Both the position numbers and the translations under genes were made by a program. Under the pieces are notes generated by a model. It made no database searches. It worked only from the letters and a program-made list of their open reading frames with translations, and was not told the origin of the DNA. A stretch of 64,000 nucleotides of DNA from Ignavibacteriales bacterium (GTDB taxonomy: Bacteria > Bacteroidota > Ignavibacteria > Ignavibacteriales > Melioribacteraceae). Location: positions 62,001-126,000 of the forward strand of contig JACOUS010000030.1 in assembly GCA_016177735.1 (NCBI GenBank). The letters run 5' to 3'. Of the stretch, positions 48,372 through 63,944 are shown piece by piece (position 1 is the stretch's first letter; each line of letters starts with the position of its first letter).

Positions 48372-48387
48372 TGTCAAAAATTTGACA
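48372..48387. promoter_or_regulatory. Crp/Fnr-like operator candidate, site A
   Basis: TGTCA-AAAATT-TGACA, a 16-bp palindrome with perfect five-base arms, in the divergent gap between the rhodanese gene and the DUF6789 gene (centre about 51 and 72 bases from their start codons). The arm-N6-arm form is that of Crp/Fnr-family sites. Similar sites recur at 56708, 61802 and 61878. Confidence 0.6.
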
Positions 48388-48451
48388 CCGTAAGTGTAAC
48401 GTATTATTTAAGTTTTCTCTAGAAATAACAATAAACAATAAGGAGTAAAAA

Positions 48452-48892
48452 ATGAAAACACGTTTCTCGATTCAATCAACATTAGTAGCCGGCTTAATAG
48501 CAACGGTAGCAATGACAGCATTTACATTCATGGCGCCTTTAATGGGCTTTGAAATGAACATACCACAAATGCTTGCCGGAACAATGGGTGCACCGTTAAT
48601 TGTTGGATGGATGGCGCATTTTATGGTGGGGCTGGTATTGGCAATTATATATGCAGCAATATTTTTAGCAGCAATTAATAAAGAAGCAAACTTTAAAAAC
48701 GGTGCGCTATTTGGAATACTTCCTTGGCTATTAGCTCAATTAATGGTGATGCCAATGATGAGTTTAATGAGTGGTGGAAGTTTCGTATCCGGTTTATTCT
48801 CTGGTTCCTTACTTATTGCCATAGCAAGTTTAATGGGACATTTATTGTATGGCGCAGCGCTAGGTACTATTTATAAACTGCAATCTGTATAA
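48452..48892 (+). CDS. DUF6789-like membrane protein
   Basis: A 146-residue membrane protein with four hydrophobic helices and many Gly/Met residues (IATVAMTAFTFMAPLMGF, GWMAHFMVGLVLAIIYAAIF, GILPWLLAQLMVMPMMSLMSGG, SLMGHLLYGAALGTIYKL). It resembles the DUF6789 group of unknown function. AAGGAG precedes the ATG. The candidate Crp/Fnr-type site A lies upstream. Confidence 0.7.
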   Translation: MKTRFSIQSTLVAGLIATVAMTAFTFMAPLMGFEMNIPQMLAGTMGAPLIVGWMAHFMVGLVLAIIYAAIFLAAINKEANFKNGALFGILPWLLAQLMVMPMMSLMSGGSFVSGLFSGSLLIAIASLMGHLLYGAALGTIYKLQSV

Positions 48893-48924
48893 TTCAATAT
48901 ATCATTAAAATAAAGGATTCTAAA

Positions 48925-49275
48925 GTGGAGCTAAATAAATCACAGAAGCGAATTTTATTTATTGGGCTGCTTGCAATAGTGACAGCTCTTTTAATGTGGA
49001 TAGGTTTTGGCGGTGAAATATTCACCAAAACTCAAGTGATAGTAGAAAAACAAAATGAATTGTTTGGAACAACTTATAAAGAATGGAAAGATCAATTTAT
49101 TCTTGGTCTGGATTACACATTAGCATTTATCGTATTAGCAGTGATGCTAACTTTAATGACTATCTATTTTAAAAGAGATAAAGGTATAAAGTCAAATTTA
49201 GTTGAGATTCGCCAGGGGCGAACAAGTTCAGAGACTTCATTATTTCTAAGCTATTTTTTGTTGTTCAAGTTTTAG
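48925..49275 (+). CDS. Small membrane protein with repeat-derived C-terminus
   Basis: A 116-residue protein with two hydrophobic helices (RILFIGLLAIVTALLMWIGF and TLAFIVLAVMLTLMTIYF). From residue 87 on (GIKSNLVEIRQGRTSSET) the coding sequence is the 54-bp dispersed repeat, so the original protein probably ended soon after the FKRDK stretch and the last 30 residues are a by-product of the insertion. Function unknown. Confidence 0.65.
   Translation: MELNKSQKRILFIGLLAIVTALLMWIGFGGEIFTKTQVIVEKQNELFGTTYKEWKDQFILGLDYTLAFIVLAVMLTLMTIYFKRDKGIKSNLVEIRQGRTSSETSLFLSYFLLFKF
49183..49236. repeat. 54-bp dispersed repeat, copy 2
   Basis: The second copy of the unit at 47742, identical except one A-to-G change in the hairpin loop region. 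It lies inside the 3' end of the 116-residue membrane protein gene and adds new codons to it. Confidence 0.9.
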
Positions 49276-49334
49276 TTCTGCCCTTGACGACGTTCTCAGT
49301 AAATGTAATTTCTCATAACAAACAAGGATAAGAA

Positions 49335-49877
49335 ATGAATAATAAATTATTAGTAACTTTAATTTTTCTCATTATTATTGTAGCATTTTTTGGATTTAAA
49401 AAAGAAGAAATAAAAATTAATCCAATTTCAAAGGGAAAAGTGATAATTCATTTGGCTACAAATATTAAGAAAGATGATGGACCTACATGTGTAGCTTTTG
49501 ATATTGCATTAGTAAACTTGAAGCTCGGCAAAAAAGTTGAATTCCTTTTTGACTCAGAAGCTGCATGGAATTTAAAGAGAACAGAAAAAGACGGTAAAAA
49601 CGATTTTGACAGATATGATGTTCCAAAGGACTTAAAAGAACTCCTCGTTAAACAGTTGAAAGATAGTGAGTTATTGGCTCTAAAAAATTTCGGTGATTTC
49701 TTAGAGCTTTTATCAAAAAAAGGAGCTAAAATAACAATTAATGGAACATGGAATGTTTTGACTGGTGTTGAAAAAGAATTAAAAGGGAAAACAAAACTGC
49801 CAAACTATGTTGAACCGCTTGATCTAAAAGAGTTAGCAAGCCATGTAAATGGCAGTGACATCTACTATAGATACTAA
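49335..49877 (+). CDS. DsrE-like protein with membrane anchor
   Basis: A 180-residue protein. An N-terminal signal anchor (LLVTLIFLIIIVAFFGF) is followed by a DsrE/DsrF-like fold: GKVIIHLATNIKKDDGPTCVAFDIALVNLKLGKKVEFLF and later KKGAKITINGTWNVLTGVEKE. One Cys lies in GPTCVAF. DsrE-like proteins move sulfur atoms, which fits the rhodanese gene nearby, but the catalytic Cys position is not certain. It precedes the flavoprotein fusion gene. Confidence 0.65.
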   Translation: MNNKLLVTLIFLIIIVAFFGFKKEEIKINPISKGKVIIHLATNIKKDDGPTCVAFDIALVNLKLGKKVEFLFDSEAAWNLKRTEKDGKNDFDRYDVPKDLKELLVKQLKDSELLALKNFGDFLELLSKKGAKITINGTWNVLTGVEKELKGKTKLPNYVEPLDLKELASHVNGSDIYYRY

Positions 49878-49986
49878 TTGCCCAATTATTCATCGGCATT
49901 AGAAATGGTCAATCAATTTTTGTCAAGAAATAAATTTGAATCAATGTTGATTAACATTTAATTGCATCGTATAACATTGGCGTATA

Positions 49987-52467
49987 ATGAAAATAATGAA
50001 AAATTATTTTAGCTGGCTTCAGAGAAATGTTCCCACCGGAGAAGTTGAAAAATATCCGGATATAGATTCGAATGGAGAAACTTCTGTAAAAGGAATTTTT
50101 ATAATCGGCGATCTTACAGGAATTCCGTTGCTAAAGTTAGCTGCAGAAAGCGGGAAAAAGATAATTGACTTTTTTGAATCAAATGATGAATCCAAAAAAT
50201 TAAAAAAAAGTAAAAAAGAGAATGAAATTTTTGATCTATTAATTATTGGTGCCGGACCGGCCGGTGTTGCCGCTGGAATTGAAGCATTTAAAAGAAATTA
50301 TTCATTCAAAATTTTAGAATCTGCAAAAAAGTTTAACACTATTGTTAATTTCCCGAAAGCTAAACCTATTATTGCTGCACCGGATGATTATAAGCAACAA
50401 TCCGATTTAAAAATAAACGATGGTATAAAAGAATCTTTGCTTGATGAATTACATGATCAAATAAAGAATATCGATCTGCCGATAGATGAAGGGGTGATGG
50501 TAAATAAGATTGAAAAAGAAGGAGATTATTTTCTTGTTATTACAGATGAGAAAAAGTACAAGGCAATTAGAGTAGTATTGGCAATTGGTAAATCCGGTAA
50601 TTCAAGACAATTAAATGTACCTGGCGAAGAGCTGCCAAAAGTATTCAACAGATTAATTGATCCCGAAGAAGCACACGGGTTGGATGTTTTGGTTGTTGGA
50701 GGAGGGGATTCGGCGTTAGAAACTGCAATAGCCGTTGCATCATGTGCAAAGTCTGTTACTTTATCTTACCGTAAACCTATTTTTGCCAGGCCGAAAGAAC
50801 AAAATGCTGAGAAACTTGCTTCTTTTGCTAAACAAGGGAAAATCAATTTGTTGATGGAATCAGATGTTAAAGAAGTAAAAAATGATTCTGTTAAGCTTTC
50901 AACAAATGACGGAGAAAAAGAAATTCCGAATTCAATTGTTTACACAATGATCGGCAAAGAACTTCCGACTGCATTCTTCAAAAGAAGCGGTATTAAGATG
51001 GAGGGAGAACTGTCGCTTACTGCAAAGTTGCAGTTTGTGCTGCTGCTTTTGGTTGCCGCTGTAATTTATTTTGGAAAAAGTAGCGAAGAACTATTTTTAT
51101 ATTTCTTCGGGAAAATGAATTCATGGACAGAAGCTTTTTCAAATGTTTTTAGTGCTACTTTCTGGTGGAAATTTATTCTTCTACCTGTTAGCATCTTAAA
51201 AATTTTTGCAACCAATGAATTAAGAATTTGGAACGTAACGGAATATGTGAATGCTTTCATTGCATATTTTTCACTCATAGGTGTTATGGTCCTTGGATGT
51301 TACTTACTCTATAAGTTTTTCGAAGATTATAGTTCGCAAATAAAACTCAACTGGCAGACTTTTAAATATTTTTATTTTATTACCGTTGGCTTTTTCTTTG
51401 CGATCGTGTTTTTTGGTGGAAAATATTTTGGGGTTGAGTTTCTGGGTAAGACACAAGGTTTTTGGTACACCGGGCTTTATTCTCTTACAATTTTGCTTTT
51501 CGGTTTGAGAAGAATGAAAATGAATCCTACTAAATATATAAAGATTCAGACCTGGACATTGATTTTGATTCAAGCACTACCTCTTTTCATTTTCCCGGAG
51601 TTTTTATTTCCTTATCTCGGAAAGATAGGAGCGTTGGGAAGTCCAGATGGCTTTATTCTTACACAAATATTTCCTAACGGAAGTTATTGGCGCTCGTATG
51701 GTTTTATACTTGCATGGCCCTTGTTTTTAAGCAACATATATAATTCAAGCGTTACGTCATTCTGGCTGGTGTTTAGTTTTGTACAAACATTTGTTTTCAT
51801 TCCATATATTGTTTACAGATGGGGCAAAGGAGCTTATTGCGGGTGGATTTGTTCATGCGGTGCATTAGCCGAAACTCTTGGTGACGAATATAGAACTCTC
51901 GCTCCCCACGGCGCAAAAGCAAAAAAGTGGGAAAATTTTGGTCAGTGGGCTTTGCTTGCTGCTTTTCTAATAACGGGATTAAAATTACTTAGCGTTCTTT
52001 ATGATTTCAATTTCCCGATTATAAATGAACATATTTCATATACAGCAGATTTCTTTCATAACATTTATCACTTCTCAATTGATATTATTTTTGCAGGTGT
52101 TCTTGGAGTTGGTGTTTACTTCTTTTTAAGCGGAAGAGTTTGGTGCCGCTTCGGTTGCCCGCTTGCTGCATGGATGCATATTGTAAACCGATTTTCTCGC
52201 TACAGAATTTTTGCAGATAAAAAGAAATGTATTTCATGTAACATTTGTACAAAAGTTTGTCACATGGGAATTGATGTAATGAATTTTGCCAACAAAGGAA
52301 TTCCGATGAACGATGTTGAATGTGTAAGATGTTCGGCTTGTGTTGTAAACTGTCCTACACAAGTTCTTTCATTTGGAAGCTTGCCGAAAACGGATATTCA
52401 AAATGAATTATATAAAATTACAAAACTACCAGTGCTCGATAACAATGACTGGCGAAGCGGTTTATAA
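49987..52467 (+). CDS. FAD/NAD(P)-binding oxidoreductase fused to NapH-like 4Fe-4S membrane protein
   Basis: An 826-residue fusion. Residues 75-350 or so form a thioredoxin-reductase-like flavoprotein: FDLLIIGAGPAGVAAGIEA (FAD) and LDVLVVGGGDSALETAIAVA (NAD(P)H), without a CxxC redox pair. Residues 360-740 have about eight membrane helices with NapH-type cysteines (GAYCGWICSCGAL, WCRFGCPLAAW). Two 4Fe-4S motifs follow (CISCNICTKVC, CVRCSACVVNCP). It should move electrons from NAD(P)H through the membrane. Genes of this design occur next to arsenosugar genes, as here. Confidence 0.85.
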   Translation: MKIMKNYFSWLQRNVPTGEVEKYPDIDSNGETSVKGIFIIGDLTGIPLLKLAAESGKKIIDFFESNDESKKLKKSKKENEIFDLLIIGAGPAGVAAGIEAFKRNYSFKILESAKKFNTIVNFPKAKPIIAAPDDYKQQSDLKINDGIKESLLDELHDQIKNIDLPIDEGVMVNKIEKEGDYFLVITDEKKYKAIRVVLAIGKSGNSRQLNVPGEELPKVFNRLIDPEEAHGLDVLVVGGGDSALETAIAVASCAKSVTLSYRKPIFARPKEQNAEKLASFAKQGKINLLMESDVKEVKNDSVKLSTNDGEKEIPNSIVYTMIGKELPTAFFKRSGIKMEGELSLTAKLQFVLLLLVAAVIYFGKSSEELFLYFFGKMNSWTEAFSNVFSATFWWKFILLPVSILKIFATNELRIWNVTEYVNAFIAYFSLIGVMVLGCYLLYKFFEDYSSQIKLNWQTFKYFYFITVGFFFAIVFFGGKYFGVEFLGKTQGFWYTGLYSLTILLFGLRRMKMNPTKYIKIQTWTLILIQALPLFIFPEFLFPYLGKIGALGSPDGFILTQIFPNGSYWRSYGFILAWPLFLSNIYNSSVTSFWLVFSFVQTFVFIPYIVYRWGKGAYCGWICSCGALAETLGDEYRTLAPHGAKAKKWENFGQWALLAAFLITGLKLLSVLYDFNFPIINEHISYTADFFHNIYHFSIDIIFAGVLGVGVYFFLSGRVWCRFGCPLAAWMHIVNRFSRYRIFADKKKCISCNICTKVCHMGIDVMNFANKGIPMNDVECVRCSACVVNCPTQVLSFGSLPKTDIQNELYKITKLPVLDNNDWRSGL

Positions 52468-52500
52468 ATATTTGAATGTAGAAATAAGATCGAGGTTAAT

Positions 52501-53871
52501 ATTAAATATTCAGTAATTATACCAACATACAACGAAGAATATTTCATTGAGAAAAATTTACAATCTCTCAGAAAGTATGATGAAGATTTGGAAATAATTG
52601 TATCTGATGGCGGAAGCAGCGATAATACTATTGAAATTTGTAAACGTGAAAAAGTTATTCTTGTTACTTCAGGTAAAGGTAGAGGCGATCAATTAAATAA
52701 AGGAGCAACTGCTGCAAACGGAGAAATTTTATTATTTCTTCATGCAGATACTTTTTTACCAGATAATGCATTTGAGTTGTTAGACGAATTTTTTATGAAT
52801 GACAAAAATAAAATATGCCGCTTTCTGCTTGGCTTTGACATTGACCACTGGTTTCTCGACTTATGCGTTTCATTTTCTAGATATAGTTTTCCTTTCACAC
52901 AATTTGGTGATTCATCAATTGTAGTGCGTAAATCTTTTTTTGAAAAACTTGGAGGATATCCGCCAATTAGTTCGTTTGAGGATGTTGAGTTTTTTAAGCG
53001 AGCAGCAAAAAGCGGAAACATTTCTATTCTTCACTCAAGTGTTGATTCGTCATCAAGACGATTTATTCAAAACGGACCTATTAGGCAGAAGTTAATTGAT
53101 TTCATGTTGTTCGCCGGTTACTTATTAAAATTAAATCCGGAATTAATGACTCGCTTTTACAACAAAAAAATAAAAAAAAATAAACTCTCGTCATTAATAG
53201 TTTTTTTAAGATCTCCTCGAATAGGGAAAGTAAAAACACGTCTTGCGGAAACCACAACTGAGGAATTTGCTCTTCACTTTTATCGAGAATGTGCTAACAA
53301 AATAATGAGTGAGATAAAAAGGATTCCTCGAATGAATAAGTACGTTTTCTATTCGGACAAATATGAAAAAGAAGAAGTTAAAAAATGGCTTGGGAATAGA
53401 TTTCTGTACTCACACCAGGATGGAGATGATTTAGGTACAAGGATGAAAAATGCTTTTCAAAAAGTATTCAGTCATGGGGCAGGGAAGGTGGTTATTGTTG
53501 GGACAGACATTCCCGATCTAACTCACTCAATTGTTGAAAACGCAATTTATTTGTTGAATGAGAACGATGTTGTAATTGGTCCATCAAAGGACGGCGGTTA
53601 TTATCTGCTCGGAATGAAAAAGATGCACAATACTCTATTTGATGATATTGAGTTCAGCACTTCATCGGTTTTACCCGAAACAATTCGCAAAATTGAAAAA
53701 ATAGGATTAAAATTTTCTTTGCTTCCACAACTTCAGGATATTGATACCGAGGCAGAACTTATACACTGGTTAGGCAATGGTAACGGCTCGCCGATTAAAA
53801 AAAAGATAGATTTAGTTTATAACCTTATAAACGGAAAGATTAGGCAACGATGCGTTCATTGTGGAGAATAG
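52501..53871 (+). CDS. Two-domain glycosyltransferase, arsenosugar type (TIGR04283 + TIGR04282), apparent ATT start
   Basis: A 456-residue fusion. The first part (about 1-220) is a family-2 glycosyltransferase of the rSAM-associated 'transferase 2' kind: YSVIIPTYNEE, IIVSDGGSSDNT, GKGRGDQLNKGA, LLFLHADT. The second (about 225-450) is the 'transferase 1'/DUF2064 kind: VFLRSPRIGKVKTRLAE, VIVGTDIPDL, VIGPSKDGGYYLLG. No ATG, GTG or TTG lies in frame before the conserved N-terminus. ATT 52501 sits 5 bases after GAGG, and the sequence reads as a normal start with ATG changed to ATT. TTG 52588 would lose 29 conserved residues. It is followed by DUF547. Confidence 0.85.
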   Translation: MKYSVIIPTYNEEYFIEKNLQSLRKYDEDLEIIVSDGGSSDNTIEICKREKVILVTSGKGRGDQLNKGATAANGEILLFLHADTFLPDNAFELLDEFFMNDKNKICRFLLGFDIDHWFLDLCVSFSRYSFPFTQFGDSSIVVRKSFFEKLGGYPPISSFEDVEFFKRAAKSGNISILHSSVDSSSRRFIQNGPIRQKLIDFMLFAGYLLKLNPELMTRFYNKKIKKNKLSSLIVFLRSPRIGKVKTRLAETTTEEFALHFYRECANKIMSEIKRIPRMNKYVFYSDKYEKEEVKKWLGNRFLYSHQDGDDLGTRMKNAFQKVFSHGAGKVVIVGTDIPDLTHSIVENAIYLLNENDVVIGPSKDGGYYLLGMKKMHNTLFDDIEFSTSSVLPETIRKIEKIGLKFSLLPQLQDIDTEAELIHWLGNGNGSPIKKKIDLVYNLINGKIRQRCVHCGE

Positions 53872-54614
53872 TATTAATCATTCTATTGTTATCGGGGAAG
53901 AGTAATATGGCGCAGAGTCATCAGCTTTTTACAGAAATACTTAACCTATATGTTAAAAACGGGTTGGTGGATTATAAAGGATTTAAGAAAGATAACAGAC
54001 TTGCTCAGTACACTGACCAGATTTCTAAAACAAACCCGGAAAAGTTAACGCGAAACGAAAAACTTGCTTTTTGGATAAATGCTTATAATGCTTTCACTCT
54101 AAAAATTGTTATAGATAATTATCCTATCGAAAGCATTACGGAACTTCACTCCGGTGGAAAGATTCTCGGTTATCTTTTAGGGAAAACAGTTTGGGATAAA
54201 GAATTTATCTTAATCAACAGTAAAAAATATTCACTCGGGGATATTGAACATACGATTTTAAGAAAAATGAATGAGCCAAGAATACATTTTTCAATTGTGT
54301 GTGCGTCAATAAGCTGCCCGCCTTTACGTAATGAAGCATTTGAAGCTGATAAAATTGATGAGCAATTAAAATCTCAAGCCGTTCAATTTATTAATGATAA
54401 ATCAAGAAATTATTTTGATATACAAAAACGAGAAGCGTATTTATCAAAAATATTTAGTTGGTTTAGTGAAGACTTCGGCAACTCTGATGAGAATGTTCTA
54501 AAGTTTGTACTTCAATATTTACCGGAAAATATTTCGAGTGATATTAAAAATAATTTATCTAAGTGGGATATATCATATAAAGATTACAATTGGAATCTCA
54601 ACGAAAATAAATAA
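53850..54614 (+). CDS. Exported DUF547-domain protein
   Basis: A 254-residue protein with a signal peptide (WRIVLIILLLSGKSNMAQ) and a DUF547 domain: LAFWINAYNAFTLKIVIDNYP, WDKEFILINSKKYSLGDIEH, IHFSIVCASISCPPLRNEAF. The Cys in ASISCPPL is conserved in the family; its activity is unknown. It overlaps the glycosyltransferase by 22 bases and often accompanies arsenosugar-type genes. Confidence 0.88.
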   Translation: MRSLWRIVLIILLLSGKSNMAQSHQLFTEILNLYVKNGLVDYKGFKKDNRLAQYTDQISKTNPEKLTRNEKLAFWINAYNAFTLKIVIDNYPIESITELHSGGKILGYLLGKTVWDKEFILINSKKYSLGDIEHTILRKMNEPRIHFSIVCASISCPPLRNEAFEADKIDEQLKSQAVQFINDKSRNYFDIQKREAYLSKIFSWFSEDFGNSDENVLKFVLQYLPENISSDIKNNLSKWDISYKDYNWNLNENK

Positions 54615-54623
54615 GGAGTAAAA

Positions 54624-54956
54624 ATGAACTATTACGAATCGAAAGATCTTGGACGCTTTGCTGAAGTAGGTAAATTTAAGCCGGAATTAATGAGAAAATT
54701 TTTTGATTATTACAGCGAAGCAACTAGCACAGAGGGCGCCTTAACAAAAAAGGAAAAAGCGTTGATTGCACTTGCTATCGCACACTTTAAACCTTGCCCA
54801 TATTGTATTGATGCATATACGACAGCATGCCTTGAAAACGGTGCCAATCCTGATCAAATGACTGAAGCGATTCATGTTGCAGCAGCTATGGCTGCCGGGA
54901 TTGATTTAGTTCACGGTGTCCAAATGCTTAATGTATTGGAGAAACAGGGGGCATAA
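54624..54956 (+). CDS. AhpD-like carboxymuconolactone decarboxylase-family protein of the arsenosugar cluster
   Basis: A 110-residue protein. The CxxC redox pair is in FKPCPYCIDAYTTACLENGA, with a conserved His in AIHVAAAMAAG. This is the AhpD fold found beside the radical SAM protein ArsS in arsenosugar gene sets; the exact role is unknown, possibly reduction of arsenic or of the product. TAAGGAG precedes the ATG, 9 bases after DUF547. arsS follows after 23 bases. Confidence 0.88.
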   Translation: MNYYESKDLGRFAEVGKFKPELMRKFFDYYSEATSTEGALTKKEKALIALAIAHFKPCPYCIDAYTTACLENGANPDQMTEAIHVAAAMAAGIDLVHGVQMLNVLEKQGA

Positions 54957-54979
54957 ATTATTTTAAACGAAAGGATAGT

Positions 54980-55993
54980 ATGAAAGAATCTGCCTTACAT
55001 CTTGTAAATAATACTCGTTATAATTTTGAAAATAAGTTAAGCGAACACGACCTTGATTTACCACCGCTCGCAATTGATACTCTTCAAGTAAATGTTACTC
55101 TAAAATGTAATCAAGCTTGTTTGCATTGCCACGTTGATTCTTCTCCAAAAAGAACCGAGCAAATGAGCAAAGAAATTATTGATAAATGCTTGGAGATTCT
55201 AAGAAATAATCCCCAACTAAAAAATCTTGACTTGACGGGTGGCGCACCGGAATTAAATCCTCATTTCGATTACTTTGTTTCTGAAGCGAAAAAACTTGGT
55301 AAACATATTATGGTCCGCCACAATTTAACCGTAACGATTGATGGAGACCCGACAACAAAAGAATCGAAAATGTATCTTCCAAAATTTTATGCCGATAATA
55401 AAGTTGAGGTTATATCGTCACTGCCTTATTATCAAGAATATTTTACAGATAAACAAAGAGGAAAAGGCGTATTTCAAAAAAGCATTGAATCCTTGCGTAT
55501 GTTAAATGAAGCAGGATACGGCGATGAAAAAAGCGGACTCATACTAGACTTGGTCTATAATCCTGTTGGAGCCTTTCTTCCGGCTTCACAAGAAATACTA
55601 GAAAAAGATTATAAGGAAGAGTTGTGGAAAAATTATCAGCTAAAATTTAATAATCTATATACTATGACAAACATGCCGATACACCGGTTCAGAGAGCAAT
55701 TGGAAAGACTTGGAGCTTACGAAGAGTATATGGAAAAATTAATTAACGCATTTAATCCCTTGGCTGCATCTGGAATTATGTGCAGGTCGTTATTAAGTGT
55801 TTCATATGATGGAAGAATTTACGACTGCGATTTTAACCAAATGCTAAATATGCAAGTGTTTGTTGATAAACCAATGACCGTCTTTGATTTTGATTACAAT
55901 AAACTTGTTAGCCGAAAAATCATTTTTGATTCCCATTGTTTTGGCTGCACGGCGGGTGCAGGCAGTAGCTGCGGCGGAGCAATATCAGAATGA
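54980..55993 (+). CDS. arsS: Radical SAM arsenosugar biosynthesis protein ArsS
   Basis: A 337-residue radical SAM protein. The iron-sulfur cysteines are in LKCNQACLHCHVDSSP (CxxxCxxC), with LDLTGGAPELNPHFD next, and the C-terminal SPASM-like/selenodomain cysteines in GIMCRSLLSVSYDGRIYDCDFNQ and HCFGCTAGAGSSCGG. The matching family (TIGR04167, ArsS) adds the 5'-deoxyadenosyl group to dimethylarsenite. In some relatives a Cys here is selenocysteine; this copy uses ordinary codons. The stop overlaps the next gene by 4 bases. Confidence 0.92.
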   Translation: MKESALHLVNNTRYNFENKLSEHDLDLPPLAIDTLQVNVTLKCNQACLHCHVDSSPKRTEQMSKEIIDKCLEILRNNPQLKNLDLTGGAPELNPHFDYFVSEAKKLGKHIMVRHNLTVTIDGDPTTKESKMYLPKFYADNKVEVISSLPYYQEYFTDKQRGKGVFQKSIESLRMLNEAGYGDEKSGLILDLVYNPVGAFLPASQEILEKDYKEELWKNYQLKFNNLYTMTNMPIHRFREQLERLGAYEEYMEKLINAFNPLAASGIMCRSLLSVSYDGRIYDCDFNQMLNMQVFVDKPMTVFDFDYNKLVSRKIIFDSHCFGCTAGAGSSCGGAISE

Positions 55994-56685
55994 TAAACAA
56001 TAAAAAGATTGTCGTAATAATCCCCGCATTCAATGAAGAAGAATCACTTCCGCATGTAATTAAAGATATACCAAAATTTGTAGATGAAATTATAGTTACT
56101 AATAACGGTTCGACAGATAGAACTGTAGGAGTCGCTTCAAATTCAGGTGCAACTGTTCTTACCGAAAATGAAAAAGGATACGGTGCGGCTTGCCTAAAGG
56201 CGATCAATTATATAAAAAATAAAAATTATGATGTGGTTGTTTTTCTTGATGGCGATTACAGCGATCACCCGGAGGATATGGAATTGGTAGTTAACCCAAT
56301 CATTAATAATGGTTACGATCTTGTAATCGGTTCACGAATGAACGGCAATAGAACAAATGGAGCCATGTTGCCTCAGGCTATTTTGGGAAATTGGCTCTCT
56401 TCTTTTTTAATAAAAATATTCTGGAAATATAAGTTTACAGATCTTGGTCCATTCCGCGCAATTAAATATTCCTCTCTCATAAAACTCAATATGCAGGATC
56501 GAAACTTTGGCTGGACAGTTGAGATGCAAATTAAGGCAGCAAAACAAAAAATAAAATGCACTGAAGTACCGGTGAGCTATCGAAAACGGATTGGTAAATC
56601 AAAAGTTACTGGAACAATAAACGGAACTATTAGAGCATCATTCAAAATTCTTTATTTGATCTTTCGAAGCCTATTACCTTATTAA
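55990..56685 (+). CDS. Family-2 glycosyltransferase (dolichyl-phosphate mannose synthase-like)
   Basis: A 231-residue glycosyltransferase: VVIIPAFNEEESLPHVIKDI, NNGSTDRTVGVA, GYGAACLKAINY, VVFLDGDYSDHPEDM (metal-binding Asp), then DLGPFRAIKYSSL and EVPVSYRKRIGKSKVTG at the end. It is cytoplasmic or membrane associated, without clear helices. The gene overlaps arsS by 4 bases and closes this part of the arsenosugar cluster. Confidence 0.88.
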   Translation: MINNKKIVVIIPAFNEEESLPHVIKDIPKFVDEIIVTNNGSTDRTVGVASNSGATVLTENEKGYGAACLKAINYIKNKNYDVVVFLDGDYSDHPEDMELVVNPIINNGYDLVIGSRMNGNRTNGAMLPQAILGNWLSSFLIKIFWKYKFTDLGPFRAIKYSSLIKLNMQDRNFGWTVEMQIKAAKQKIKCTEVPVSYRKRIGKSKVTGTINGTIRASFKILYLIFRSLLPY

Positions 56686-56707
56686 GCAAGATTATTAACA
56701 TCATAAC

Positions 56708-56723
56708 TGTCAGATACTTGACA
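56708..56723. promoter_or_regulatory. Crp/Fnr-like operator candidate, site B
   Basis: TGTCA-GATACT-TGACA, perfect five-base arms around six bases, about 104 bases before the ATG of the gnd/tkt chimera. It matches sites A, C and E in arm sequence and spacing, and the middle GATACT is near-identical to the AATACT of site E. Confidence 0.6.
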
Positions 56724-56819
56724 TCTCATAAACTCCGTAAACTCTAAATTATATTTAGAAACTGAAATTTGTATTGCATTTAGTTAGCGATTCAGTGTCT
56801 AAAAATTATAGGAGAAAAA

Positions 56820-57719
56820 ATGAAAATCGGATTTATCGGCTTAGGCAAAATGGGATTTAATATGGTTCAACGATTGTTGAAAGACGGACACGAAATTGTT
56901 GTTTGGAACAGAGATGTCACGTCCATCAAAAAAAATGTAAAACAAGGTGCTATTGCAAACGGAATTGCTTTAAGCGGATTAAAAACATTCGCCTCGACAT
57001 TTTTGGTTTTTTCAGATTATGGACGTTCATCAATTCGTCTCTCTGCTTTGATGAATCTTCCGGTTATTTACATTTTCACTCATGACAGCATTGGCGTTGG
57101 CGAAGATGGTCCAACTCATCAACCGATTGAGCACATCGCATCATTACGCGCAATTCCAAATTTGGAAGTTATTCGACCGGGTGACGCAAACGAAGTTGCT
57201 GTTTTATGGAAATATATAATGGAATCTAAGAACACTCCGACAGCATTAATATTAAGTAGACAAGATTTGGCAGTATTTGATAGAACAAAATATTCATCTG
57301 CTGAAGGTGCGTTAAAAGGAGGTTACGTTTTAGCAGATAGTGATGGAACACCGGATGTAATATTAATCGCAACTGGTTCAGAGGTTCAGTTAGCAATTGA
57401 AGGTTATGAAGAATTGAAGAAAGAAGGAATTAAAGCAAGAGTAGTGAGTATGCCGAACTGGAATCTATACGAAAGACAAAGCCCGGAATATTGGGAATCA
57501 GTTTTACCGAACAAAGTTAAAGCACGTGTTGCTATTGAAGCTGGTTCAACATTTGGATGGAGAAGATTTGTTGGTATTCACGGAGATGGTGAAGTTCTTG
57601 GAATGAGAACTTTCGGCGCTTCCGGGAAGCTGAATAATCTTTTAGAAGAATTTGGATTGACGGTTGAATCGGTAGTGAGAACAGCTAAAAATGTTATTAA
57701 TAAAAATAAAAATTTGTAG
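56820..57719 (+). pseudogene. Chimera of 6-phosphogluconate dehydrogenase start and transketolase end
   Basis: A 299-residue open frame joining two unrelated enzymes. Residues 1-44 are the Rossmann start of 6-phosphogluconate dehydrogenase (KIGFIGLGKMGFNMVQRLLK, VWNRD). From about residue 45 on it is the C-terminal half of transketolase (FLVFSDYGRSS, GVGEDGPTHQPIEHI, SMPNWNLYERQSPEYW, GWRRFVGIHGDGEV). About 380-400 transketolase residues, including the thiamine-diphosphate domain and the Glu of the REH motif, are missing, so neither activity is expected. Joined at about 56946-56957, where both proteins read Gly-Ala-Ile. Confidence 0.8.
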
Positions 57720-57728
57720 GAGAATAAA

Positions 57729-60536
57729 ATGCTAAAGCTAAACCAACTTGCATCATTGGGACAATCAATATGGTACGACTATATCCGCCGCCAATTTATT
57801 ACCGGAGGTGAACTTCAAAAATTAATTAACAATGGTTTGAGGGGAGTTACATCCAATCCCTCCATATTCGAAAAAGCTATTGCCGGAAGTAGTGATTACG
57901 ATGAAGATATAAAAAGTTTGATAGATAAGAATTTATCACTCACAGAGATATATGAAAAATTAGCGCTGAAGGATATCGAACTTGCATGCGATCTGATGCT
58001 GCCGGTTTATCAAGCGACGGATAGATTGGATGGCTACGTTAGCATTGAAGTAAATCCGCAATTAGCACATAAAACCGAAGCGACAATTCAAGAAGCAAAA
58101 AGATTATTCGCACTTCTTAATAAGCCGAATGCTATGATCAAAGTTCCCGCAACAGAAGAAGGTATTCCGGTTATTACGGAACTTATCGGTTCGCAGATTA
58201 ATGTTAATGTTACATTAATCTTCAATTCGGAAAATTACCGTAAAGTAGCTGAAGCTTACCTTAGCGGGTTGGAGCTTCTTATCCAGCGAAAGGGCGATCT
58301 ATCTAAAGTTGCATCGGTAGCTTCTTTTTTTATCAGCAGAATAGATGCAGCGGTTGATAAAGAGTTAGAAAAAATCGGTAACAAAGATTTGCAGAGAAAA
58401 GCTGCAATTGCCAATGCTAAGTATTCATACAAAATTTTTAATGAATTGTCTCATGGCTTGAGATGGAGAAATTTTGAAAAGCACGGCGCAAGAACGCAGC
58501 GGTTACTTTGGGCAAGCACGGGAACAAAAAATCCTCTTTACCCGGACACAATTTATGTTGATGGACTTATCGGAAAACAAACAGTAAACACTGTTCCGCC
58601 AACTACATTTAATGATTTTATGGATCATGGAATTGTTGCGGTTACCCTGGATAACGGATTGGAAGAGGCCATTGATCAACTTGACGAATTGAAAAAACTT
58701 GGAATTAATTTAGATGAAATAACAAATCAATTACAAAAAGAAGGTACTATCGCTTTTTCAAAATCATTTGATACAATAATGAATTCCTTAAATGAAAAAA
58801 TTGATCGAATTAAAAAAGAAAAAGTTCTTTTCAAAGTAAATGCTGTCAATTATCAATCTACTATCGATAACGCAACGATGGAATTAAAACAAAAAAGAAT
58901 TGTGGAAAGAATATGGGAAAAAGATTTTACCGTTTGGAGCGACAAACCAAATGAAATTACAAATCGGCTCGGCTGGCTAAAAAGCCCGGAAGTCTCGCTG
59001 GAAATGTCAGATGAAATTAATGGGTTTGTTGAGACCGTCAAAAAAGATGGCTACACAAATGTACTACTGCTTGGTATGGGCGGCTCAAGCCTGGCGCCGG
59101 AAGTATTTAGTAAAACTTTTGGAACAAAGGAAGGTTATTTGAATTTAGAAATTCTTGACAGCACACATCCTGAAGCAGTTCTTGAATATGCCGAAAGATT
59201 TGATCCGTCAAAAACTCTTTACATAGTTTCAACAAAATCTGGCGGTACTGTTGAAACATTTTCATTTATGAAATTCTTTTACAATCAAGCTCTCAAGAAA
59301 GTCGGAAAAGAAAATGTTGGCAAGCATTTCATTGCAATTACAGACCCCGGAAGCGGATTGGAAACAGTTGCTAAACAATTAAACTTTAGAAAAATATTTT
59401 TGAACGATTCAAATATTGGTGGAAGATATGCTGCACTTTCACTTTTTGGAATAGTGCCGGCGACATTGATAGGAATTGATATTAAGAAATTACTCAACAA
59501 TGCTGAAGTAATGGTTTGCAATAGCGAAGGAAGCAATTGTCCAGTTCATGGTGATAACACACCGGCAAAGTTAGGAGTGGTTATGGGGGCTTTAGCTGAA
59601 GTAGGCAGAGATAAAGTTACTTTTATTACTTCCGAAAAATTATCATTCTTTGGGAGTTGGGTTGAGCAATTGATAGCCGAGAGCACGGGTAAATTAGGCA
59701 AAGGAATCCTTCCAGTAGTAGGTGAGGAAGTTTTACAGCCAACATTTTATTCGAACGATAGATTATTTGTTTATCTGAAATTAGAAAATGATTCTGCGAA
59801 TGATAAAGCAGTTGAGAAGTTAAAAGAAGCCGGATATCCCGTGGTAGAAGTTGTACTAAAAGATATTTACGATCTTGGAGGAGAATTCTTCAGATGGGAA
59901 ATGGCAACTGTAATATCGGGATGGAAAATAGGAATAAACCCATTCGATCAGCCGAATGTTGAAGCAGCAAAAATTCTTGCAAGAGAATTACTTGCTCAAT
60001 ATTCAAGAGATGGAAAACTGCCGCAACCGCAAGTATCATTTGAATCAGATGGTATCAAAGTTTATTCACCAAATAATGAAAATAACTTCACCGATCTTGT
60101 TGAAGAATATTTTGGAAAAGGCGATAAAGGTTTTCGAGAGAAGGGTAATCAATATATTTCAATTCACGCATATATGAATCCAAGCAAAGAATTGGATAAG
60201 CATCTTCATACATTCCAGACTAATCTTCAGAAAAAATATCAATCCGCGGTCACTGTTGGTTATGGACCAAGATTTTTACATTCAACCGGTCAACTTCATA
60301 AAGGAGATGCGGGCAAAGGTGTAGTTATTCAGATTATTTCAAGAGGCGAAAAGGATGCACCAATTCCAGATAATGCAGGAGATGATAAATCAAGCATGTC
60401 TTTCGGAACATTGATTACAGCACAAGCCTTTGGTGACAGTCAGGCTTTATTTAAAAATAATCGTATAGTGATTTCTTTCGAAATCGAAAGTATTAATCAC
60501 GACAAAATTGTGACTTTGATAAATATGTTTGATTAA
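57729..60536 (+). CDS. Bifunctional transaldolase / glucose-6-phosphate isomerase
   Basis: A 935-residue fusion. The N-terminal transaldolase (about 1-365) has GVTSNPSIFEKAI, the Schiff-base Lys in AMIKVPATEEG, and LRWRNFEKHGARTQRLLWASTGTKNP. The C-terminal glucose-6-phosphate isomerase (about 390-935) has LLGMGGSSLAPEVF, VSTKSGGTVETFSF, IGGRYAALSLFG, AESTGKLGKGILPVVGEE and GINPFDQPNVEAAK. Tal-Pgi fusions are known. It starts 9 bases after the chimera with TAGGAG and should be translated from the same mRNA. Confidence 0.93.
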   Translation: MLKLNQLASLGQSIWYDYIRRQFITGGELQKLINNGLRGVTSNPSIFEKAIAGSSDYDEDIKSLIDKNLSLTEIYEKLALKDIELACDLMLPVYQATDRLDGYVSIEVNPQLAHKTEATIQEAKRLFALLNKPNAMIKVPATEEGIPVITELIGSQINVNVTLIFNSENYRKVAEAYLSGLELLIQRKGDLSKVASVASFFISRIDAAVDKELEKIGNKDLQRKAAIANAKYSYKIFNELSHGLRWRNFEKHGARTQRLLWASTGTKNPLYPDTIYVDGLIGKQTVNTVPPTTFNDFMDHGIVAVTLDNGLEEAIDQLDELKKLGINLDEITNQLQKEGTIAFSKSFDTIMNSLNEKIDRIKKEKVLFKVNAVNYQSTIDNATMELKQKRIVERIWEKDFTVWSDKPNEITNRLGWLKSPEVSLEMSDEINGFVETVKKDGYTNVLLLGMGGSSLAPEVFSKTFGTKEGYLNLEILDSTHPEAVLEYAERFDPSKTLYIVSTKSGGTVETFSFMKFFYNQALKKVGKENVGKHFIAITDPGSGLETVAKQLNFRKIFLNDSNIGGRYAALSLFGIVPATLIGIDIKKLLNNAEVMVCNSEGSNCPVHGDNTPAKLGVVMGALAEVGRDKVTFITSEKLSFFGSWVEQLIAESTGKLGKGILPVVGEEVLQPTFYSNDRLFVYLKLENDSANDKAVEKLKEAGYPVVEVVLKDIYDLGGEFFRWEMATVISGWKIGINPFDQPNVEAAKILARELLAQYSRDGKLPQPQVSFESDGIKVYSPNNENNFTDLVEEYFGKGDKGFREKGNQYISIHAYMNPSKELDKHLHTFQTNLQKKYQSAVTVGYGPRFLHSTGQLHKGDAGKGVVIQIISRGEKDAPIPDNAGDDKSSMSFGTLITAQAFGDSQALFKNNRIVISFEIESINHDKIVTLINMFD

Positions 60537-61093
60537 ACAATCTGAAACAGCTCCCTTCCCAATCATAAAGCGCTTCTCCATTAAAAGAGGAGCGCTTAAA
60601 CAAGAAATGAAAATGGTTCCCAAAATGTATCTTGCCATGGAAATACTCCCGAATTGCTTGAGACATATATTTATGGTTATAAAAAGTTTAAACATGACTC
60701 CGGATTTACTCCTCAAGAACAAGAAGTAATTTTCTTAACCATTAGTTATGAAAACGGTTGTGAATATTGTTTAGCTGCACATTCGATTGTGGCAGATTTT
60801 CAATCTAAAGTCCCGATAGATATAACTGAAGCAATAAGAAATGGAGAAGATATCTCCGACCAAGATTGAAAGCATTGTCTGAATTTACAAAGATCATGTT
60901 AAATAAACGCGGTTGTCCATCTAAAGAAGATGTTGATAAATTTTTAAGTGCGGGATTTTCTCAAGAGCAGATTTTAGCAGTTATATTAGCAATCTCTGTA
61001 AAGACTATAAGTAACTATACAAATCATATTTTCCAAACACCTCTAGATGCAGCTTTTAAGGTTAGGGAATGGAAAGGATACAAAGTTGCCTGA
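60529..61093 (+). pseudogene. Frameshifted carboxymuconolactone decarboxylase-family gene
   Basis: One AhpD-like gene broken over three frames. Segment 1 (to about 60652) reads MVPKMYLAMEILP; segment 2 (about 60651-60866) reads LLETYIYGYKKF and SYENGCEYCLAAHS with the CxxC pair; segment 3 (60866-61093) reads KALSEFTKIMLNKRG and SNYTNHIFQTPLDAAF. Both frame changes fit loss of a single base, near 60650 and near 60862 (where one extra C would restore SDPRLKAL). The start and the first segment are also worn. It may be a decaying gene or sequencing error. Confidence 0.75.
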
Positions 61094-61193
61094 AAGATTG
61101 TTTAGTTTTTTAGAGGAAGTCAAAATTGATAACGAGGTGAGTTAACAATTAGAAACGATATTCTAATTTATATGATGGAAAATGAGTAGAAAT

Positions 61194-61233
61194 AAAAAAC
61201 CCCGTACACATAAATTTGTGACGGGTTTTTTTT
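61194..61233 (-). terminator. Terminator after the YHS gene
   Basis: A hairpin with arms AAAAACCCCGT and ACGGGTTTTT plus inner CACA/TGTG around TAAATT, with T and A runs at the two ends. It lies 16 bases beyond the stop of the minus-strand YHS gene and may act in both directions. Confidence 0.8.
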
Positions 61234-61248
61234 TAGAATTAAAAAAAA

Positions 61249-61698
61249 TTATTTATTTGCAAGTACTGCCAAATTTTTATTGGCACCCTTGATTGTCATA
61301 TCAGGATCTTTATCGAATTCTGCCTTTGCCACTTTATTTGAAAATAAATATGTGGAATCTTTATAAACTGAAAATATCCCGGGAGCAGATTCAACCCTTT
61401 TCCCCATTGCTAATGCAGTTGCACAATAACCATCATACTTTGGTAAATATTTAACCGGATCAGAATCAAACATTTTTTTTGCATCTGCCATTGCAAAGAA
61501 ATATGTTTTTCCTTTATAAGTTGAAGAAAATTTTGCATCACCTTTAACAGCTTTATTCATTGCCGCATATGCTACCGGGCAGTATTGATGAAGTGCTATT
61601 TCCTTTTTTGATTTCTTTGCAGTTTGAGCATTTACTGTTAATGTAAAACCAAAAGTAAAAAGTAGTGCAAGACCTAGTACTCTTAATGCGAGTTTCAT
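61249..61698 (-). CDS. Exported YHS-domain protein
   Basis: A 149-residue protein with a signal peptide (VLGLALLFTFGFTLTVNAQ) and two YHS-like units: YCPVAYAAMNKAVKG with YKGKTYFFAMADAKKMFDSDPVKY, and YCATALAMGKRVE with YKDSTYLFSNKVAKAEFDKDP. YHS domains are small metal-binding-like folds with a conserved Cys. Function is unknown. It diverges from nrtS, and its upstream region holds sites C and E. Confidence 0.82.
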   Translation of the reverse strand: MKLALRVLGLALLFTFGFTLTVNAQTAKKSKKEIALHQYCPVAYAAMNKAVKGDAKFSSTYKGKTYFFAMADAKKMFDSDPVKYLPKYDGYCATALAMGKRVESAPGIFSVYKDSTYLFSNKVAKAEFDKDPDMTIKGANKNLAVLANK

Positions 61699-61801
61699 AT
61701 ATATCCTTTTTAATTACCTATTAATTTGTTTTAAACTTAAGTACTTTTTTGATTAGTACAGAAGTAATGAAACAAATCTAATGTGCATACGAAAGGAGTA
61801 T

Positions 61802-61817
61802 TGTCAAATACCTGACA
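61802..61817. promoter_or_regulatory. Crp/Fnr-like operator candidate, site C
   Basis: TGTCA-AATACC-TGACA with perfect arms in the divergent gap between the YHS gene and nrtS, about 112 bases from the YHS start codon and 120 from the nrtS start. Confidence 0.6.
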
Positions 61818-61877
61818 GATATTAATATTTGACAGTTTTGTAGTGGCAGCCAATAATAATCCTATTTTCTGCACATA

Positions 61878-61893
61878 TGTCTAATACTTGACA
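61878..61893. promoter_or_regulatory. Crp/Fnr-like operator candidate, site E
   Basis: TGTCT-AATACT-TGACA, nine of ten arm bases matching the consensus of sites A-C, about 44 bases before the nrtS ATG. A lone half-site (TTTGACA) also lies at about 61828-61834. Confidence 0.55.
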
Positions 61894-61929
61894 ATATTAA
61901 AAAACAGATTAACATAGATTACCTCAAAA

Positions 61930-62202
61930 ATGAAAAGTTCTATGGCACAATTAACCGCACAGATATTTGACCGGAATAATTTATTTAAGCACATGCGAAC
62001 TTCCATGTTTGTTGGCACTGTCTTAAATATTATTAACCAGGGTCAGCATATAATCAGCCTCGATTTTGGAGGAATAGATTATTTCAAGTTTATACTTACA
62101 TTTTTAGTCCCATTTGCCGTTTCGGCATATGCGGCGGGGACAGTTGGAAATAAAAAAGTTAATAGCGATAATTCCGTTGCCACTTTGGATGTAGAGAAAT
62201 GA
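61930..62202 (+). CDS. nrtS: NrtS-like nitrate/nitrite transporter
   Basis: A 90-residue protein with two hydrophobic helices: SMFVGTVLNIINQGQHII and FKFILTFLVPFAVSAYAAGTVG. The pattern TxLNxINQG...LTxLVPFxVxxYxA is that of NrtS, a small nitrate/nitrite transporter family. It overlaps the NnrE gene by 4 bases (ATGA). Site E lies directly upstream, which would suit control by nitrogen oxides or oxygen. Confidence 0.82.
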   Translation: MKSSMAQLTAQIFDRNNLFKHMRTSMFVGTVLNIINQGQHIISLDFGGIDYFKFILTFLVPFAVSAYAAGTVGNKKVNSDNSVATLDVEK

Positions 62203-62933
62203 GTATAAAGTTCCGAACTGAAAATGGTATTGTTGTTCCTTCAGTAACAATGGAACAAATGATTGAAGTGGATAGAATTGCTGTTGAAGAAACCGGACCG
62301 AATCTTTATCAGATGATGGAAAATGCCGGACGAAGTTTAAGTCAGCTTACAATTGAAACGCTTGGAGAGAACTGGAAAAATTCAAAGATCATTGTTCTTG
62401 CTGGGGCCGGCGGTAACGGAGGCGGGGGAATTTGTGCTGCAAGGCATCTTGCAAACCGAGGTGCCAACGTAAAAGTTTGCTTAACGGAACCGGAAAGATT
62501 GAAAGATGTAACTGTATTTCAACTTCACATCTTGAAATCCACAAACGCAAAAATTATTTCAATTGAAGAGTTGCAAAATGGAAAGCCGGATTTGATTATT
62601 GATGCAATTATAGGATACAGTTTGATGGGTGAGCCGAAAGGCAATTCGCTTGAATTAATTAAATGGGTATCTAATCAGCAGGGTATAGTTATTTCTTTAG
62701 ATATTCCTTCTGGAATTAATTCAACAACAGGAGATGTTGCTTGTAATTATATAAAGCCTGATTTAACATTAACACTCGCTTTGCCAAAGACTGGGTTACT
62801 TCCCTCATTAACAGGTGAACTTTATCTTGCTGATATTGGAATTCCAAACAAAGTTTATGAAGAACTGAATCTGAAATATCAACAGCCGTTTAATCATAAC
62901 TATTATGTAAAGCTGATAAGTGAAATATTGTAA
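62199..62933 (+). CDS. nnrE: NAD(P)H-hydrate epimerase (YjeF N-terminal domain)
   Basis: A 244-residue single-domain epimerase: QMIEVDRIAVEETGPNLYQMMENAGR, VLAGAGGNGGGGICAARHLANRGANV, IIDAIIGYSLMGEPKG and ISLDIPSGINSTTGDV. It repairs damaged NAD(P)HX. The C-terminal kinase domain (NnrD) usually fused to it in bacteria is absent. The start overlaps nrtS by 4 bases, so the two share an mRNA. Confidence 0.88.
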   Translation: MSIKFRTENGIVVPSVTMEQMIEVDRIAVEETGPNLYQMMENAGRSLSQLTIETLGENWKNSKIIVLAGAGGNGGGGICAARHLANRGANVKVCLTEPERLKDVTVFQLHILKSTNAKIISIEELQNGKPDLIIDAIIGYSLMGEPKGNSLELIKWVSNQQGIVISLDIPSGINSTTGDVACNYIKPDLTLTLALPKTGLLPSLTGELYLADIGIPNKVYEELNLKYQQPFNHNYYVKLISEIL

Positions 62934-62975: not shown

Positions 62976-63944
62976 ATGAGCTATCTTGAAAAAGTTGAAG
63001 ACGTGTATAAAGAAGCTGCATTAAATCCCGATAAAGGATTATGCTGTACTACTACACCAATCTGGCAATTACCGGGATTGAATATTCCTAAAAAAATGCT
63101 TGAGATGAATTATGGATGTGGAAGCACCGTGCATCCACGCGATTTATCTAACAACCCGACGGTTCTTTATGTTGGAATTGGAGGAGGTATGGAGCTGCTT
63201 CAGTTTTCATACTTCACAAGAAAAAAAACATCTGTAATTGGTGTTGATCCGGTTGAAGAAATGATTACCGCATGTAGAGAAAATTTGATTGATGCAGAAA
63301 AACAAAATGATTGGTTCAAAAAAGATTTTATCAAATTATATAAAGGAAGTGCGTTGCAGCTTCCGCTTGAAAATGAATCTGTGGATGTCGCCGCTCAAAA
63401 TTGTTTATTCAATATTTTTCACGAGGAAGAACTTATACAAGCGTTGAAAGAAATTTATCGCGTATTAAAGTCTCACGGAAGATTGGTTCTTTCCGATCCT
63501 ATCTGTGAAACTGAAATGCCTGAAAACCTAAAAAATGATGCACGTCTGCGCGCACTGTGTTTAAGCGGTGCTCTTCCTTTAAAAAAATATTTAGAATTGA
63601 TCACGTCAATAGGTTTTGGAACAATTGAAATACGTGCAAAGAGACCGTATAGAATTCTTGATCCCGAACATTACAACACATACGAAAATATCTATATCGA
63701 AAGCGTGGAAATCTGCGCGATCAAAGATCCCATTCCGGCTGATGGCCCATGTATCTTTACCGGCAGAACAGCCATTTATTACGGTTCGGACGAATTGTTT
63801 GATGATAAAAAGGGACACGTTCTTTTAAACAATCAACCTCTTGCTGTTTGCGATAAGACTGCTAAAGTGCTTAGTAATTTTGGGCGGAAAAATATTTTTA
63901 TTTCTGAATCAACATATTTTTATGACGGTGGCGGATGCTGTTAA
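62976..63944 (+). CDS. arsM: Arsenite methyltransferase ArsM of the arsenosugar type
   Basis: A 322-residue SAM-dependent methyltransferase. The SAM motif is LYVGIGGGMELLQF, then VIGVDPVEEMI and HEEELIQALKEIYRVLKSHGRLVLSDP. Cysteines that can hold arsenic are in PDKGLCCTTTP, NYGCGSTV and the far end DGGGCC. The first and last stretches are those of the ArsM associated with arsenosugar synthesis. It would dimethylate arsenite for ArsS. AAGGAAC precedes the ATG, 42 bases after nnrE. Confidence 0.88.
   Translation: MSYLEKVEDVYKEAALNPDKGLCCTTTPIWQLPGLNIPKKMLEMNYGCGSTVHPRDLSNNPTVLYVGIGGGMELLQFSYFTRKKTSVIGVDPVEEMITACRENLIDAEKQNDWFKKDFIKLYKGSALQLPLENESVDVAAQNCLFNIFHEEELIQALKEIYRVLKSHGRLVLSDPICETEMPENLKNDARLRALCLSGALPLKKYLELITSIGFGTIEIRAKRPYRILDPEHYNTYENIYIESVEICAIKDPIPADGPCIFTGRTAIYYGSDELFDDKKGHVLLNNQPLAVCDKTAKVLSNFGRKNIFISESTYFYDGGGCC

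Follow-up and report, generated by a model that had tools for sequence, protein, structure and literature searches.

The stretch of DNA analysed here (the window; 64,000 nucleotides of contig JACOUS010000030.1, here C35, of an Ignavibacteriales bacterium of the Melioribacteraceae) carries in its right-hand part four copies of the palindromic operator word TGTCA-N6-TGACA, three of them exact and one with a single arm base changed. A sequence-only reading had assigned these sites to a Crp/Fnr-type regulon; the positions and six-base gaps it gave were correct for all four, and the window holds no further match when one mismatch is allowed. In the whole genome (3,866,697 bases, or 3.87 Mb) the exact word occurs four times and its control, the reversed pattern, not at all, which places the exact sites above background. 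Three lie in the window and the fourth approximately 15 kb past it, at C35:140893-140908. All four are thus clustered within C35:110372-140908, a span of 30.5 kb that four randomly placed sites would share with a chance of about 2e-6. Within the window, the four sites found with at most one mismatch compare with 1.77 expected, and as 15 of 100 shuffles reach four, this count is unremarkable. When 124 kb of the contig were scanned for the operator together with a -7 promoter box, as a composite with at most two mismatches in total, five places were found: the four sites and the region between the regulator gene crp and the thioredoxin-like gene trx. The sites, their boxes and the genes that follow them are listed below.

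48372-48387, plus strand: operator TGTCAAAAATTTGACA of the DUF6789 operon (exact match; box toward DUF6789)
48409-48416, plus strand: -7 box TAAGTTTT, 21 bp after the operator (composite scan)
48452-48892, plus strand: DUF6789 membrane protein, first gene of the operon (Pfam PF20587, 1.3e-10; composite also upstream of orthologues)
48925-49275, plus strand: small membrane protein recurring beside DUF6789 (cluster in 8 of the 11 close genomes defined below); no family above cut-off in profile searches
49335-56685, plus strand: rest of the DUF6789 gene run (spacing between genes, family matches), as follows
49335-49877, plus strand: unclassified protein
49987-52467, plus strand: pyridine-nucleotide oxidoreductase with 4Fe-4S domains
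52588-53871, plus strand: TIGR04282/TIGR04283 arsenosugar glycosyltransferase fusion
53850-54614, plus strand: open reading frame (ORF), presumably DUF547-like
54624-54956, plus strand: TIGR04169 peroxidase-like protein
54980-55993, plus strand: ArsS
55990-56685, plus strand: glycosyltransferase
56708-56723, plus strand: operator TGTCAGATACTTGACA of the pentose-phosphate genes (exact match)
56745-56752, plus strand: -7 box TAAATTAT (composite scan; one mismatch to TAnnTTT)
56820-57719, plus strand: ORF fusing, in frame, the first ~46 residues of 6-phosphogluconate dehydrogenase (6PGD) with the C-terminal part of transketolase (family matches)
57729-60536, plus strand: bifunctional transaldolase/phosphoglucose isomerase (NF007080, 1098 bits)
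61249-61698, minus strand: YHS-domain protein, target of the site at 61802 (PF04945, NF041384)
61773-61780, minus strand: -7 box TAGATTTG for the YHS gene (composite scan)
61802-61817, minus strand: operator for the YHS gene, TGTCAAATACCTGACA on the plus strand (exact match; box only toward YHS)
61878-61893, plus strand: operator TGTCTAATACTTGACA, one arm base changed, toward nrtS-yjeF-arsM (composite scan)
61915-61922, plus strand: -7 box TAGATTAC (composite scan; one mismatch to TAnnTTT)
61930-62202, plus strand: NrtS-like nitrate/nitrite transporter (NF038050 at cut-off, 25 bits; no Pfam match)
62199-62933, plus strand: NAD(P)H-hydrate epimerase domain, YjeF N-terminal (TIGR00197)
62976-63944, plus strand: arsenosugar-type ArsM methyltransferase (NF038099, 548 bits)
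C35:140625-140879, minus strand, outside the window: trx, thioredoxin-like gene beside crp
C35:140913-141602 (L017:14913-15602), minus strand, outside the window: crp, Crp/Fnr regulator of 229 residues

Judged from its spacing, the DUF6789 run probably forms one operon through 56685. At 48372 the promoter box faces DUF6789 and none is found on the side of the rhodanese gene, which had been counted among the targets and is rejected as one; at 61802 the box lies on the YHS side only. The site at 61878 is the least secure of the four, because just 3 bases separate its predicted transcription start from the ATG listed for nrtS, and it gains support from its geometry, being one of five composites in the 124 kb scanned. 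The fusion at 56820-57719 looks like an internal deletion, either genuine or from assembly; in genome G070 an intact 6PGD gene lies behind one site and is followed by the genes for glucose-6-phosphate dehydrogenase and 6-phosphogluconolactonase. By eye, the 1401-residue ORF at 43222-47427, with repeated SPNGGE-type modules, probably encodes a surface protein.

The regulator gene and its conservation

Minus-strand genes flank the fourth exact site, which lies 5 bp beyond the crp stop codon and before trx, so that a gene of the Crp/Fnr family is present beside it, about 15 kb beyond the window. The encoded protein matches PF00027 (5.2e-21), PF13545 (1e-12) and PF00325 (3.8e-5), all above cut-off; its sensor domain of the cyclic-nucleotide-binding type and C-terminal Crp helix-turn-helix (HTH), together with the two-fold operator whose arms stand six bases apart in promoters, are those of the Crp/Fnr superfamily. 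The Crp HTH family has two matches above the Pfam cut-off in this genome, and three weaker ones below it. The recognition helix of the Crp protein reads CSRQTVN (R193-Q194), and that of the second Crp-type protein, at C35:222 kb, reads TSRETIS (R-E), the classic CRP form. As the Glu of the CRP recognition helix reads the fourth base pair of TGTGA, a change from Glu to Gln fits the change from TGTGA to TGTCA.

The Crp protein has only two cysteines, C107 and C191, the former being kept in 23 of 24 aligned homologues, Flavobacteriales included. Among 15 aligned orthologues the only histidine present in at least eight rows is H182 in the HTH, no histidine is conserved in the sensor domain, and E85 and R94 are invariant. 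An AlphaFold model of the protein (mean confidence score pLDDT 76, predicted template-modelling score pTM 0.54) matches Crp structures with a template-modelling (TM) score of only about 0.46, and its domain arrangement is therefore unreliable. Upstream of crp, L017:15620-16700 (C35:141620-142700) looks by eye like a broken tyrosine-recombinase gene, and an integrase-like ORF precedes crp in locus L119, both hinting at an island that is, or once was, mobile. Just beyond the regulator, outside the window, L018 (C35:146001-158000) carries a run of ORFs that by eye resemble gas-vesicle genes.

A scan of named genomes gave 75 crp loci, with orthologues in Ignavibacteria (Melioribacteraceae and kin) and more distant homologues largely in Flavobacteriales; 69 of these were used to count sites, L188-L193 (a fragment and the most distant loci) being left out. 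With TGTCR-N6-YGACA, at most one mismatch and a position within -10 to +60 relative to the crp stop as criterion, a site follows crp in 44 of the 51 loci with at least 55% identity (reversed control 0/51), and in 18 of the 21 loci whose DNA was new to the analysis, L180 coming from an already surveyed genome. Seven loci have no such site: five of them are without a thioredoxin-like frame behind crp, L164 has the frame and no good site, and L137 has a one-mismatch composite further on. In the 37 whole loci the wider consensus has 34 exact matches, of which 30 are intergenic, against no control match, and the more distant orthologues often have TGTCA-N6-CGACA behind crp. A small CxxC gene was called behind crp in 32 of 37 loci inspected, including all three from Flavobacteriales.

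In the more distant group sites also occur upstream of crp, and because their box faces the divergent gene in 8 of 10 cases and crp in none, autoregulation of crp through this site is not claimed. The loci with an operator and box toward the divergent gene are L142, L148, L150, L153, L156, L158, L162 and L166; in L153 and L158 this gene encodes a protein of about 320 residues with no Pfam family, and a DUF3179 gene adjoins it in L153.

The 79 genomes of the family were divided into 11 close ones (our own included; crp orthologue at least 71% identical along its full length), 23 more distant ones (mostly 56-62% identity, with one at 43% and one fragment) and 45 without an orthologue, the latter including G064 and G067 with their 30%-identity matches. 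Exact sites and controls number 41 and 15 in the close genomes and 37 and 64 in the 45 without an orthologue, a difference with a rank-test p of 4.8e-6 (control p 0.57). The same-genus genome G017 has neither an exact site nor, at E 1e-30, a crp orthologue. When the 41 sites of the close genomes were placed on genes, 31 were intergenic, counting L083:19257 and L086:9954 which both lie in over-long ORF calls, and 10 were coding, counting the L107 site inside an ORF of 60 residues that might not be a genuine gene; the motif is thus not as common inside genes as in promoters.

The motif is also present upstream of orthologues in relatives. DUF6789 orthologues were found in 23 of the 79 genomes, all 23 within the 34 that have the regulator (p 5.9e-12), and the best composite upstream of 22 of them shows at most one mismatch in 14, two in six and three in two (G041, for which there is no upstream sequence, was left out, and the second copy of G000 was kept apart). 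In various genomes sites precede DUF6789, CMD/AhpD-like, YceI, 6PGD, YHS or NrtS genes, as well as genes for a protein secreted by the type IX system, a DUF2652 gene, a thioredoxin-like gene and ArsM (assigned by its start sequence and place), while these clusters also repeatedly contain peroxiredoxin, DUF6969, histidine-kinase and YjeF genes. Genome G002, with a 62% orthologue, has DUF6789, the small membrane protein, YjeF and AhpD in one cluster with the composite at two places.

Several other arrangements were observed. Upstream of DUF6789 in L240, L242-L246 and L249 the -7 box stands at its usual distance from a TATCG-N6-TGTCA variant, which several of the weaker DUF6789 composites have in common. 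An identical composite, TGTCGATTTGCCGACA...TATGTTT, is found at G059:C3:39748 and G060:C1:3598850, in two genomes without the regulator, and could point to another factor or be inherited by chance. TGTCAGAATAATGACA, without a -7 box, precedes a small ORF that by eye resembles an antitoxin, at matching positions in two genomes (L111:1992 and L113:1994).

Promoter geometry

Aligned on the operator, 35 operator-target rows (two sites being included in both orientations) share the box TAnnTTT, whose first T is 29.5 bp away from the centre of the operator (T conserved at 94%, A at 91%). In 34 of 39 target promoters, whose orientations were set after seeing the alignment, TAnnTT follows the operator at exactly 21 bp, vs 2 of 39 on the opposite strand; in the crp-trx promoters, where crp fixes the orientation, it stands at 21 bp in 37 of 44 (15/16 close, 22/28 distant). 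A correctly placed box, in at least one orientation, accompanies 25 of the 31 intergenic exact sites and none of the 10 coding ones. The composite TGTC-N8-GACA-N21-TANNTTT occurs 35 times against one control match in the 11 close genomes, all of which have at least one, 19 times against three in the 23 more distant genomes (12 have one), and seven times against six in the 45 without an orthologue.

Class II activation by CRP has the regulator centred at -41.5. In the published descriptions, TAnnTTTG is the primary sigma box of Bacteroidota (PMC7366714) and spans -12 to -5 in Flavobacterium (PMC9723704); since the box begins 21 bp after the operator, the operator centre is predicted to fall at -41.5, as for a class II activator.

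A probable regulon and its alternatives

Comparison of the sequences establishes the operator, its placement in promoters, its co-occurrence with the regulator gene and its conservation in relatives. The adjacent crp gene, this co-occurrence and the fixed-distance promoter sites give strong support to a Crp/Fnr-type regulon that uses an unusual word, and the whole reading, with a Crp/Fnr-type activator, the TGTCA-N6-TGACA operator, class II promoters and an accessory island, is in our view very probably right. We infer that the Crp protein binds the operator and activates; by analogy with its family it would bind as a dimer, its specificity set through R193-Q194 of the recognition helix, and contact RNA polymerase in class II geometry. 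From an operator with its centre at -41.5 of Bacteroidota-type TAnnTTT[G] promoters (in the wider family, TGTCR-N6-YGACA), it would switch on genes for thiol and peroxide defence, the NADPH-making pentose-phosphate genes, the arsenosugar genes, YHS, NrtS and the CxxC thioredoxin-like gene behind crp.

A number of observations weigh against this interpretation. The genome-wide count with at most one mismatch equals background (60 vs 61 reversed), and the 23 more distant genomes show no enrichment of exact sites (30 vs 32 control). Six of the 31 intergenic exact sites, including those of G070 6PGD and G054 trx, have no box in place. No operator precedes the second DUF6789 copy of G000, on C38, and some members of the more distant group carry TATCG-N6-TGTCA as the operator of DUF6789. 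Flavobacteriales homologues keep R-Q without the site, which is found in only 1 of 18 homologues below 50% identity. Finally, C107 is also present in the R-E homologues L184 and L186, and is therefore not special to this group.

Sensing of oxygen or nitric oxide, which the sequence-only reading had put forward, is unsupported: with two cysteines, vs the four of the 4Fe-4S cluster of FNR, and no conserved sensor-domain histidine, FNR and CooA chemistry are unlikely, and both types of sensing were rejected. Nor does the sensor domain have a conserved histidine for a heme-mediated nitric-oxide response of the DNR/HcpR type. Because the targets include peroxiredoxin, AhpD-like, thioredoxin and NADPH-making genes, our best guess, a tentative one, is that the Crp protein reads a thiol or peroxide cue jointly with its thioredoxin-like partner. 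More speculatively, the two proteins might form a thiol-switch pair in which C107 is set by oxidant and reset by the CxxC partner that Crp itself switches on. We know of no such pair in the Crp/Fnr family; if true, it would be a self-resetting sensor turning on a mobile redox and arsenosugar island.

The main rival on the signal, and one we hold just as tentatively as the thiol cue, is that the same regulon responds to cyclic AMP (cAMP) or another small ligand. The closest solved structures are indeed the cAMP-binding CRP of Mycobacterium tuberculosis and GlxR, and the pocket is partly kept, E85 and R94 being invariant. However, R94 is followed by a variable residue (T in P0001; H, N or V elsewhere) and then by an invariant D, where E. 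coli CRP has R-S-A, and the pocket is unreliable in the predicted structure. It is improbable that another palindrome-reading regulator binds the sites or that the Crp protein represses: MerR and response regulators lie nearby in some genomes, but their clusters each occur in only 4 of 11 close genomes and crp in all 11, the arm-N6-arm word, R-Q helix and -41.5 spacing have the form of a Crp activator, and repression would not call for a single fixed spacing. Still less likely is a terminator or RNA hairpin behind crp, where in most loci some 4-14 bp separate the stop from the palindrome; its arm letters are kept and its inner six vary, the trx box stands at its fixed distance in 37/44, and in five of the seven site-less loci crp is not followed by a trx-like frame. 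The reading as chance palindromes, or as ordinary TTGACA -35 boxes with an accidental left arm, we consider almost certainly wrong in spite of the TTGACA right arm of many sites and the non-significant window count at one mismatch, given the exact-word counts in the genome and the close genomes, the wider-consensus matches in the 37 loci, a left arm after crp as conserved as the right (selection allowed one mismatch), and a 21-bp distance from TTGACA to the box where the usual -35 spacing is 17; the chance, -35 box and hairpin readings were all rejected.

The interpretation as an activator regulon offers a testable set of regulator gene, operator, promoter geometry and targets for a class known here mostly from metagenome-assembled genomes. 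It places class II spacing of the Crp type on promoters with TAnnTTTG, for which about 80 natural examples have been aligned as test cases, and ties DUF6789, DUF6969 and DUF2652 proteins to redox defence and the making of arsenosugars.

Comparison with known systems

HcpR and FNR-type regulators share with the Crp protein the Crp/Fnr family and accessory redox targets. They differ in that the words given for HcpR, TTGTGA-N6-TCACAA or ATTTGACC-NN-GGTCAAAT (PMC545781), are not that found here, and in that the Crp protein has no cysteine cluster. The CRP/FNR proteins described from metagenome-assembled genomes of Ignavibacteria (PMC8510549) are Crp/Fnr regulators of the same bacterial group, for which matrices from other bacteria were used and carbon sensing was predicted; TGTCA has no occurrence in the main text of that article. 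TGTGA-type CRP motifs near dehalogenase genes are reported in PMC12090745. Searches of the open-licence literature found no description of the regulon, and calling it undescribed is based on these.

CRP of the TGTGA type combines an R-E-x-x-x-R recognition helix with TGTGA-N6-TCACA, whereas here R-Q goes with TGTCA. The nearest solved relatives by sequence are Rv3676 CRP of M. tuberculosis and GlxR (3d0s and kin, E 6e-28), which on the predicted model are nearest by fold too (4a2u and 3i54; TM about 0.46). Their word is TGTGA-N6-TCACA, and in the alignment of Protein Data Bank sequences their helix has S-R-E where the Crp protein has S-R-Q.

CooA (2fmy), a CO-sensing Crp/Fnr activator of CO dehydrogenase genes, ranks below M. 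tuberculosis CRP both by sequence and by fold. It binds heme via a sensor-domain histidine, and has a Gln at the helix position as well. The arm differs from the CRP word TGTGA, and TGTC-N8-GACA has a precedent as the core of the published CooA consensus TGTCGGCNNGCCGACA (PMC545781). The outer operator word is thus the same in the two systems. No carbon monoxide dehydrogenase, for which no dedicated search was made, is among the annotated genes, and the targets here are redox, pentose-phosphate and arsenosugar genes. The Crp protein has no conserved histidine in the sensor domain, and its only conserved cysteines are C107 and C191, so that the CooA word appears to be used by a protein unlike CooA in its sensor domain.

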